Below the pieces are notes generated by a model. The model ran no database searches. It saw only the letters and a program-made list of their open reading frames with translations, and was not told the origin of the DNA. Source: a virus. From it: a stretch of 25,629 nt of DNA. The stretch lies in the IMG/VR virus record IMGVR_UViG_3300025652_000480, positions 1 through 25,629 of that record; one strand, given 5' to 3'. A program made the position numbers and the translations under genes. Positions 9,181 to 11,745 of the stretch are shown piece by piece. The first letter of the stretch is position 1; each line of letters starts with the position of its first letter.

Positions 9181-10833
9181 TTAAAAGTCATCATCAGTAT
9201 TATCTTCTTCACCGCCTATGACTTCGTTAAGTCTACCAGTTTCTCTATCATATAGCAACTTCGTTGCCGTACCTACATCACCGGTATATCTAGACTTTAA
9301 TACTCTCATTTTTGTAGTATTAGATTCCGACTCGCTATCGGATTGTTGGTTTCTTTCTAATGCTATAACACAGTCTGATAACTGGGCAATACTTTGAGAG
9401 CCTCTAAGATGAGAGAGACTCACCTCTATACCATTCTCATGTCCTTTGTTACCGTCAACTCTTCTCAGATGAGACACGAGTATCATACCTACACCAGTCT
9501 CTTCTACGATACTTCTTAGGCGTGCCATAATATTATCAATAGCTCTTCGCTCATCGCCCTCAGCAGTGGCTACAACCAGCATATGTAAGTGGTCAAGTAC
9601 TACCCATTTACAACCACAGCCAACAATCATAAACCTAATCTTAGAAAATATTTCTTCAATGTCGTTGGTTCCAAAGTGTGCATGTACCCACACTCTATTT
9701 TTATTTTCTCCGTCATAAAGAATATCAAAGAACTTATCTAGTTCTTCCGGAGAATACTGTTCCCTAATGTGGTCAATGTATAATCTGTTGTTAGCTTCAA
9801 TAGAAAGAATACCGTCAATGGTTCTTCTCCAGTCTTCTTCTAAAGCAATAACGCCCACATTATCAGTGGTGTTTTTAATTAGATGATGCTCTAATTCACG
9901 GGTGACACTAGACTTACCAAGTCCTGTACCTCCTGTTAAAGTGACTAGCTCTCCTCCTCTCAAGCCTACAAGTTTTTCATTAAGACCTTCCCAAGGATAA
10001 GGTATGCTAGGTTTCTTTTCTCTCTTATGAAACTCTTGTCTCTTGTCAGATACATTGATAACACCGGAAGGTGTATAAGTTTTAGCATCCCAAAAAGACT
10101 TAACAAATAAAGCATGTTTGTTTTCTTTTAACATTTCATTAGGGTCTTTAAACCCATTAGGCAATGTCATAATCTTAGACTTACGAGGTGAAAATAATTG
10201 AGCAACTTTTTTAGAAGCCTCTTTACCAGCCTTGTCATTATCAAAACAGATTATAATATTTTCATACTGTTCTAAAAACTCTAAGCTTTCTTTAACATCC
10301 TTGACTGCTCCTTGACATCCTCTCTTAATAGAGACAACATCATACTTAGAGCCAAATAATTCATAGGCTGCCATAGCATCGCACTCACCTTCAACTAAAG
10401 TAATATACTTACCACCTTTAAAAAGTTGTTCACCGAATAGTCCAGTGCCGTCAGGTGTTCCTCTGAAACTAAAGTTCTTATCTTTTACATAACGAATCTT
10501 TAGAGCGACCTGCTCGTTTAAATTAAATAAAGGGTATAGGTGTTGTACCACTTGCCCATTACTATCTTGAACAACTTTAACACCATACTTTTGTGCGGTG
10601 TCTTTTGATATTTTTCTATCAGTTAAAGCACTATATATAGCACCGTGTTCATTGCTTAATGATTGAAAGTTATTTGTTTTTACTGGTGATGCTGATTGCA
10701 CGTCCGGCTCCTCCTTATAATTTTTAAAATATCCACTACAGCTAAAGCAGTAAGCAGACCCGTCATCGTTTAGAGATACGGCATCACTACTACCACATGA
10801 TTCACAGGGTAAATGATATTCAACAAACGCCAT
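9181..10833 (-). CDS. T7 gp4-like primase-helicase
   Basis: This bifunctional replisome protein has 550 aa. The N-terminal zinc-binding domain has C10/C13 and C29/C32. The TOPRIM primase domain has VEGE (E148) and FDND (D198, D200). The C-terminal DnaB-type helicase has Walker A GGTGLGKS (301-308), Walker B VVLDHLHM, and an HLRGSQSIAQLSD arginine-finger region. The last residues (EEDNTDDDF) form an acidic tail ending in Phe, like the T7 gp4 tail that docks on the polymerase. Its binding site AAGGAGG lies 4 nt before the ATG. It is preceded by a structured intergenic region that may control its translation. Confidence 0.97.
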   Translation of the reverse strand: MAFVEYHLPCESCGSSDAVSLNDDGSAYCFSCSGYFKNYKEEPDVQSASPVKTNNFQSLSNEHGAIYSALTDRKISKDTAQKYGVKVVQDSNGQVVQHLYPLFNLNEQVALKIRYVKDKNFSFRGTPDGTGLFGEQLFKGGKYITLVEGECDAMAAYELFGSKYDVVSIKRGCQGAVKDVKESLEFLEQYENIIICFDNDKAGKEASKKVAQLFSPRKSKIMTLPNGFKDPNEMLKENKHALFVKSFWDAKTYTPSGVINVSDKRQEFHKREKKPSIPYPWEGLNEKLVGLRGGELVTLTGGTGLGKSSVTRELEHHLIKNTTDNVGVIALEEDWRRTIDGILSIEANNRLYIDHIREQYSPEELDKFFDILYDGENKNRVWVHAHFGTNDIEEIFSKIRFMIVGCGCKWVVLDHLHMLVVATAEGDERRAIDNIMARLRSIVEETGVGMILVSHLRRVDGNKGHENGIEVSLSHLRGSQSIAQLSDCVIALERNQQSDSESESNTTKMRVLKSRYTGDVGTATKLLYDRETGRLNEVIGGEEDNTDDDF

Positions 10834-10837
10834 ATGT

Positions 10838-10946
10838 CCTCCTTAAAAGTGGGCTATTACAATACTAGGCAAGGCAAGGAGGTGCGGTAAAGTGCCTAAA
10901 GTAATAGCCCTTAATATTAGTAAGACCCTCCTGTCTTACATATTAA
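10838..10946 (-). promoter_or_regulatory. Double-hairpin leader of the primase-helicase gene with SD and anti-SD loops
   Basis: In the leftward mRNA two hairpins abut. Hairpin A (10946-10911) pairs 14 bp (ATATTAA/TTAATAT and GTCTTAC/GTAAGAC as written on the + strand) with one 2-nt bulge, and displays AGGAGG as a six-base loop. Hairpin B (10910-10851) has a perfect 10-bp stem (GGGCTATTAC/GTAATAGCCC) and an inner 6-bp stem (TAGGCA/TGCCTA). Its apical loop contains CACCTCCTT (10884-10876), identical to the 16S rRNA 3' end. The primase binding site AAGGAGG (10844-10838) follows. The B loop can pair with either the A loop (6 bp) or the real binding site (7 bp), so a translational switch is plausible. 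Confidence 0.6.
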
Positions 10947-10947
10947 A

Positions 10948-11187
10948 CTAATCAGAATCTAGTGATTCATCCACAGGCTCTTCAACAATAGCTTCCTCTT
11001 GTTTCTTTAAAAGCTCTTCGAGGTTAGCTCTATGTGTCCTGCTAGCAAAATCCAAAGCTTCTATAATAACCTGTAGGTTTCCTACTTTCTGTACTATTAC
11101 AGTAGCTTCTTGTTTGACTGACTCATCAGATATTTTATTAACATCGTAAAGAGTATTACCTTCTTCGTTATTAATTGTAATTATCAT
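10948..11187 (-). CDS. Small acidic helical protein between SSB and primase
   Basis: This 79-aa protein is not recognised. It opens with a short beta-like stretch (MIITINNEEGNTLYDV), continues with helices containing regular hydrophobic positions (QEATVIVQKVGNLQVIIEAL) and ends in an acidic tail (EEPVDESLDSD). AAGGA lies about 7 nt upstream of the ATG, and the gene follows SSB by 9 nt. Its position between two replisome genes suggests a replication accessory role; that is inference. Confidence 0.75.
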   Translation of the reverse strand: MIITINNEEGNTLYDVNKISDESVKQEATVIVQKVGNLQVIIEALDFASRTHRANLEELLKKQEEAIVEEPVDESLDSD

Positions 11188-11196
11188 AGTGAATCC

Positions 11197-11685
11197 TTAA
11201 AAGTCTGCATCGGAATCTAGCTCTTGTCTTTCAACTAAGTCTAAGATTCTAACACCGTCTAGTATATAGTAATTAAATGTACCATAACTATTGGTTAATT
11301 GCCAGTAATGAAATTGAATTCTAGCACGGGTGCCTGTCCATACAGTAATCTCTCTACCGGATTCAACATCAACAAAATCAAAGGGTTGTCCGTCAGCATC
11401 TTTAACTACTGGAGGATTGTTTTTCTTACCACTTTTAAATGATGTATACCTTTTAAGATATATAGCCTCAGACATATTATCTTCGGAGCCTACCATTTTG
11501 GTTTTAACGCCCATTGTTTTAGCTATCTCTAACTCTTCTTCGCTGTCAGGTAGTATAAAGGTTTCCCATATACCCTCTTGCACAAACTTAGTGTTAGGAA
11601 TATTAATAGAAGGATAGACTAAAGTACCTTCCATAACGTACTTTTTAATCTGTCCCTCATCGTTTCTTTCAATTTTTAAATCCAT
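11197..11685 (-). CDS. Single-stranded DNA-binding protein, T7 gp2.5-like
   Basis: This 162-aa protein is beta-rich with many aromatic residues, as expected for an OB-fold. It ends in an acidic tail with a terminal phenylalanine (ELDSDADF), the hallmark of T7 gp2.5. The family coats ssDNA during replication and contacts the polymerase and helicase through this tail. The order SSB, small protein, primase-helicase, polymerase supports the call. It has its own consensus promoter just upstream and a strong binding site (GAGGAG). Overall sequence similarity to T7 cannot be judged by eye, so fold assignment rests on size, tail and context. Confidence 0.8.
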   Translation of the reverse strand: MDLKIERNDEGQIKKYVMEGTLVYPSINIPNTKFVQEGIWETFILPDSEEELEIAKTMGVKTKMVGSEDNMSEAIYLKRYTSFKSGKKNNPPVVKDADGQPFDFVDVESGREITVWTGTRARIQFHYWQLTNSYGTFNYYILDGVRILDLVERQELDSDADF

Positions 11686-11717: not shown

Positions 11718-11745
11718 ATTATAATAAATTATTTGCGAATGTCAA
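11718..11745 (-). promoter_or_regulatory. Sigma70 promoter upstream of SSB
   Basis: On the minus strand TTGACA (11745-11740) is followed after 16 nt by TATAAT (11723-11718); both hexamers match consensus. Transcription would start near 11711, about 25 nt before the SSB ATG. The -35 box lies within the last codons of the upstream gene. This would let SSB and the genes below it be transcribed apart from the operon head. Confidence 0.8.

Follow-up and report, generated by a model that had tools for sequence, protein, structure and literature searches.

A conserved two-hairpin leader before the primase-helicase gene in one clade of marine phages: a candidate translational switch with a loop complementary to the Shine-Dalgarno sequence and to an upstream element

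The window, i.e. the whole 25,629-nucleotide stretch of viral DNA analysed here, carries a gene for a 550 aa primase-helicase with Toprim and DnaB_C domains (9181-10833, minus strand), the presumed target of the switch discussed below, which is followed by a family A DNA polymerase gene. Upstream of the primase lies an ORF of 79 aa (10948-11187, minus) without Pfam or PHROGs family, and a single base separates its stop codon UAG (10950-10948) from the first hairpin of the primase leader. A small, acidic-tailed ORF (78-92 aa) between the SSB and primase genes is conserved in all type I phages. Two genes upstream of the primase, a probable ssDNA-binding protein (SSB) gene is located at 11197-11685 (minus). 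Its product shares 27% identity with an annotated putative ssDNA-binding protein of Pelagibacter phage HTVC103P and 25% with a protein of Pelagibacter phage HTVC115P annotated as ssDNA-binding, and yields no match in a Pfam search. Directly upstream of this gene, a sigma-70 promoter consensus TTGACA-16-TATAAT (11718-11745, minus) is present with 12 of 12 positions matching, as a consensus match only. Since this perfect consensus precedes the SSB gene and no other good promoter was found ahead of the primase, SSB, small ORF and primase probably share one transcript, with its presumed start at the consensus.

The leader of the primase gene contains two abutting hairpins (all coordinates in this paragraph on the minus strand). 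Hairpin A (10946-10911, -10.1 kcal/mol folded alone) has 14 bp, formed by a 5' arm at 10946-10933 and a 3' arm at 10926-10911 that holds a 2-nt bulge, and its entire loop is AGGAGG (10932-10927), complementary to CCUCCU in the loop of the second hairpin. Hairpin B (10910-10851, -21.4 kcal/mol folded alone) starts at the very next base and consists of a basal stem of 10 bp (10910-10901/10860-10851), an upper stem of 7 bp (10899-10893/10871-10865), a 4-nt bulge (10864-10861) and a loop containing CACCUCCUU (10884-10876), and within it the anti-Shine-Dalgarno (anti-SD) motif CCUCCUU (10876-10882). The linker ACUUUU (10850-10845) connects hairpin B to the primase Shine-Dalgarno sequence (SD) AAGGAGG (10844-10838), which is able to pair with loop B and precedes the start codon at 10833-10831. 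The first-pass annotation had placed hairpin A, its loop and the SD 6 nt past hairpin B accurately; for hairpin B the start and the 10-bp stem were correct, and the upper stem has 7 bp instead of the 6 counted there. The primase SD is among the strongest of the window. Folding energy of the 126-nt region is ordinary (z = -1.5; 18 of 200 shuffles fold equally well), so that the single sequence is unable to settle whether the element is real, and CCTCCTT alone occurs four times in the window against 2.6 expected. Judged by its relatives, the leader is a real, conserved and clade-specific RNA element, and the evidence against chance is comparative.

Relatives were collected from viral-contig scans with the primase of the window and those of four relatives, plus a DNA pattern search. 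The element is present in 16 unique leaders from these scans and the pattern search. The comparison set comprises 149 unique primase leaders, among which the clade is defined by a primase at least 78% identical to that of the window. All 14 unique leaders of the clade possess CCUCCUUGC in a hairpin before the SD. None of the 135 leaders below 78% identity has the element, and one of them has the eight letters CTCCTTGC by chance. Homologues lacking either stem had been named beforehand as counting against the element, and the outcome of this check is mixed; the clade retains it, with an unconvincing A hairpin in L010 and L011, and phages with about 70-74% identical primases lack it wholly. It was not seen in the leaders of the cultured relatives HTVC103P, HTVC115P and CHOED (primases 46-49% identical), and no relatives of the window's primase were found among genome contigs. 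In more than half of the 149 leaders less than 30 nt separate the upstream stop from the primase start, which points to the element as an addition in one clade; gene order is the same in some related phages without it. Before other genes in viral contigs, outside the primase clade, most of the motif matches listed look like chance occurrences with weak stems. One match, L356, concerns an unrelated gene start where a stem of 12 bp encloses CCTCCTTGC ahead of the SD, possibly an independent case. As far as these sequence sets reach, the element occurs in a group of marine phages and is confined to one clade.

The basal stem of hairpin B is found in 10 distinct versions, all with 100% standard pairs and with changes on both sides at 7 of the 10 pairs. 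When arms were swapped among versions, none of 10000 swaps paired as well, and slid partners pair at only 28-50%. In the alignment that includes the SD pseudoknot helix, 99.5% of cells are paired, with a covariation score of 0.458 versus 0.238 in shuffles. Loop B and the SD can form 7-10 Watson-Crick pairs in every leader, and their helix extends past the SD core lineage by lineage, with GCAAGGAG in L005, AGCAAGGAGG with CCUCCUUGCU in L153 and AGGAGGUAA with UUACCUCCU in L155. The SD helix is nearly invariant and shows no covariation; it is unable to, because the SD sequence is held by the 16S rRNA. It is supported because the loop is constant in an otherwise changing leader and because the extensions beyond the SD core are specific to lineages. 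Conservation of both the B stem and the anti-SD loop is shown by this comparison. As in SD-sequestering pseudoknots, the loop on a conserved stem is thus complementary to the SD that follows it. If the basal 10 bp are formed and the upper stem is open, the connecting segments measure 9-17 nt (L2) and 5-9 nt (L3), lengths that permit a pseudoknot; where the stem is long, as in L153 with 19 bp, the linkers leave little length for one if the whole stem stays intact. The pairing core CCUCCUUGC is the only unpaired sequence that the lineages have in common, which would argue against a pocket for a ligand and, to a small degree, against a binding site for a protein. Searches against Rfam with gathering and relaxed thresholds returned no usable match, only two chance matches to microRNA families at E above 1.

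Covariation in both stems and conservation of both loops had been proposed as a check of the element; stem B covaries and CCUCCUUGC is kept in loop B, whereas loop A varies in sequence and retains its complementarity. The upstream hairpin of the relatives has different stems and different loops, and in most leaders the loop is again complementary to the leader's own loop B: AGGGACUG to CAGUCCCU in L005, GAGGGA to UCCCUC in L003, AGAGCAAGGA to UCCUUGCUCU in L008, AGCAAGGA to UCCUUGCU in L153 and GCAAGGA to UCCUUGC in L155. In L006 the complementarity spans only 5 nt, and in L010 and L011 the A sequence is complementary (GAGCAAG to CUUGCUC in L010), but no convincing hairpin surrounds it. Over six lineages the matches of 6, 6, 8, 10, 7 and 7 nt sum to 44 nt, versus a mean of 28 and a maximum of 37 in shuffles; none of 4000 shuffles, which respect position and preserve composition but not codons, was as good. 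The purine-rich upstream coding sequences favour chance complementarity. Probabilities for single lineages range from <0.001 to 0.37; the 8- and 10-nt matches of L005 and L008, each a hairpin loop, reach P < 0.001, and L003 and L006 alone are not significant (P 0.24-0.37). Complementarity is often similar if A and B are swapped between lineages, because CUCCUUGC is common to all loops. The A stem, GAAUC/GAUUC in L003, reads GAGUC/GACUC in L006 and remains paired; the difference consists of two synonymous third-codon changes within the upstream ORF. In all cases 12-24 nt separate the end of A from stem B. A is placed 96-111 nt ahead of the primase start throughout, while the upstream stop ranges over 41 nt (-128 to -87), which suggests that the position of A follows B instead of the stop; A lies between 18 nt before and 16 nt after the end of the upstream stop codon. 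A complementarity of A to loop B that varies by lineage is shown by the same comparison.

In every lineage the sites of A and SD on loop B have 2-8 nt in common, with 2 nt shared in L005 and the entire site in the window, and full A-B and B-SD pairing are therefore mutually exclusive. Computed for bare duplexes with loop costs excluded, energies range from -9.0 to -17.8 kcal/mol (A-B), from -11.4 to -18.9 kcal/mol (B-SD) and from -8.3 to -11.8 kcal/mol (SD-16S). On this bare-duplex scale B-SD is stronger than SD-16S in every member and stronger than A-B in most lineages, not in L008; in the window A-B (-11.0 kcal/mol) is near B-SD (-12.3 kcal/mol). The first-pass annotation had suggested loop A and the real SD as alternative partners of loop B, and both complementarities are indeed kept in lineages of differing sequence. 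It had also predicted a toggle for primase-helicase translation, a prediction strengthened by the overlapping sites and the two maintained pairings. For the same reasons a toggle is the natural reading, and it appears well supported by comparison.

We consider the leader, with a probability of about two in three, an intercistronic cis-acting translational switch of the primase-helicase, with B-SD pairing as the OFF and A-B kissing as the ON state. When OFF, the anti-SD CCUCCUUG on hairpin B would fold onto the SD 5-9 nt past the stem, and the resulting loop-to-tail pseudoknot would block binding of the 30S subunit. When ON, A, usually a hairpin loop, would kiss part of loop B, so that the anti-SD is occupied and the SD free. 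From the sequences we infer that the loop pairings form in vivo, in which direction they act and what triggers the switch. Candidate triggers are the order of folding and ribosomes that terminate on the upstream ORF. A and B are synthesized ahead of the SD, so A-B may form first on the nascent RNA; as SD pairing is computed to be stronger in most lineages, it should win later unless A is held. Because A lies at or beside the stop of the preceding ORF, a terminating ribosome could mask or unfold it and shift the balance. That ribosome traffic throws the switch, with ribosomes ending the preceding ORF masking or unfolding A, freeing loop B and closing the primase SD, is a tentative proposal with the odds against it. 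If true, primase output would be coupled inversely to translation of the SSB operon, without ligand or protein factor.

Hairpin B might alone sequester the SD as a constant down-tuning, with hairpin A separate (RNA stability or an RNase III site) and the A-B complementarity a purine-rich by-product. The shared anti-SD loop does give any purine-rich upstream stretch partial complementarity, and some lineages are not significant individually; this reading is nevertheless unlikely in view of the combined test (0 of 4000), the two long loop matches of L005 and L008 (8 and 10 nt, P < 0.001) and the constant position of A before B. Alternatively, primase or SSB could bind the hairpin or pseudoknot as a protein operator and repress primase translation, the pairing merely building the site. 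The probable SSB gene in the same predicted transcript would fit, as would the precedent of T4 gp32, which autoregulates via a leader pseudoknot (PMC3014915). Yet a protein site usually keeps some unpaired sequence, of which none is kept beyond CCUCCUUGC, and related phages with the same gene order do without the element; we regard an operator as quite improbable.

A weak intrinsic terminator or an RNA processing hairpin between SSB and primase could set transcript ratios. Three to four U follow the stem in several type I leaders, and the leaders L203, L207 and L212 bear terminator-like hairpins with U runs at the same place. No terminator was called at hairpin B, however; the U tract is short and missing in L089, L153 and L155, and this explanation, which we hold to be very improbable, leaves the invariant CCUCCUUGC loop and the A-B complementarity unaccounted for. 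An intrinsic terminator, with a GC-rich stem and a U run, was accordingly rejected as the main role of the leader. Least credible is ribosome sensing, a possibility raised in the first-pass annotation, in which loop A would act as decoy or standby site for the 30S subunit and loop B as a 16S mimic. The window itself would fit: AGGAGG has a computed pairing energy of -10.8 kcal/mol with 16S, and nine bases of the 16S end are present in loop B. The nine-base match is correct for the window, but CACCUCCUU is found only in its close group. The universal part of loop B is CCUCCUUGC, and in several lineages its last bases fit the leader's own SD region or loop A, not the 16S end. Relatives carry AGGGACUG, GAGGGA, AGAGCAAGGA, GCAAGGA or GAGCAAG in place of the supposed ribosomal SD mimic; computed pairing of A with 16S falls to -4.5 kcal/mol in L005 and -2.3 kcal/mol in L010, while its pairing with the loop B of the same leader remains between -9 and -18 kcal/mol. 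With affinity and identity both differing by lineage, 16S mimicry as a conserved feature was rejected, and ribosome sensing is not supported.

In its logic the leader is nearest to that of the timP mRNA of enterobacteria, which has mutually exclusive conformations (PMC11228461). There, upstream and downstream stem-loops form a covarying 7 bp pairing that is needed to translate a structurally occluded SD; this leader of a host toxin gene has four stem-loops, an antisense RNA (TimR) and the SD inside a stem (PMC11228461). Covarying long-range pairing between two stem-loops is likewise found here, with L010 and L011 lacking a clear upstream hairpin, but the present leader has two hairpins, the anti-SD in an apical loop and a phage replication gene inside an operon, and no sequence relation is claimed. 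Among the nearest systems in biology is the gene 32 leader pseudoknot of T4, T2 and RB69, which lies upstream of the ribosome-binding site, is bound by gp32 and controls translation (PMC3014915). It shares with our leader the phage replication gene and the leader pseudoknot, but does not pair with the SD and has no competing upstream hairpin. A pseudoknot of the gene 32 type, upstream of the ribosome-binding site and leaving the SD unused, was rejected for the present leader, as the pairing partner here is the SD. Equally near are the T4 genes e, soc, 49 and I-TevI, in which an ordinary hairpin contains the SD or start codon and is relieved by later promoter use (PMC3014915). These are phage mRNAs with a sequestered SD as well, in contrast to which the present leader combines loop-to-tail pairing with a built-in competitor. 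In the repY-repZ leader of IncI/ColIb-P9 plasmids, the choice among alternative structures depends on a ribosome translating the leader ORF, and control of the SD involves loop pairing over a long range as well as an antisense RNA; the SD becomes accessible there when the pseudoknot forms, whereas the loop-SD pseudoknot here would hide it. The preQ1 and SAM-II riboswitches take the SD into a pseudoknot; the present leader differs in that it lacks a conserved unpaired sequence of aptamer type and is matched by no Rfam family. The leader would belong with the SD-sequestering leader pseudoknots, and no compared system has its three-part layout. The earlier remark that no described phage element with such a layout is known agrees with our literature search, conducted in open-access papers.

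Few phage translational switches of RNA alone are known to us. A 2010 review remarks that, among viral pseudoknots, the one of T4 gene 32 may be alone in serving autoregulation of translation (PMC3014915). The leader described here holds a sequestering loop together with its own competitor in a compact form of about 110 nt, and compensatory tests are already available in its natural variants. It is relevant to the question of how the relative amounts of SSB, primase-helicase and polymerase made from a single operon are adjusted by phages, and may be useful in synthetic biology as a part that needs no ligand.

In sister clades, at least two further structured RNAs, unrelated to this one, are found at the corresponding place in the leader, so that control of the primase by RNA seems recurrent in these phages. 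One of them, GAGAGGC...GAUAAG-loop-CUUAUCC-GCCUCUC, is located about 60 nt before the primase SD in L043, L044, L048, L051, L070-L072, L140 and L274; it displays compensatory outer-stem changes and a possible pseudoknot, and has no Rfam match. A second structured-looking module of the window (about 14308-14203, minus) follows just after a promoter-like TTGACA and has the core pattern AAGUAAAUGAGUACUAUACCACCAUGCACUA at 14239-14209. At least 119 viral contigs contain this pattern, for the most part in intergenic leaders that belong to different genes, and none of the window shuffles does; the closing stem of the module has both-side changes at several positions, and Rfam contains no match for it. 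Some sister phages carry the module in the primase leader and close relatives of these do not (L184/L188 vs L182/L192), a patchy presence which suggests that it may be mobile. A possible small H-type pseudoknot, ACAGUUGCUAGACCUGUAAAACUAGC, is situated at 14201-14177 (minus), with a topology that recalls preQ1-I riboswitches; primase leaders of sister phages contain it in the form CAAGUUGCUAGACCUUGAYAAAACUAGC.
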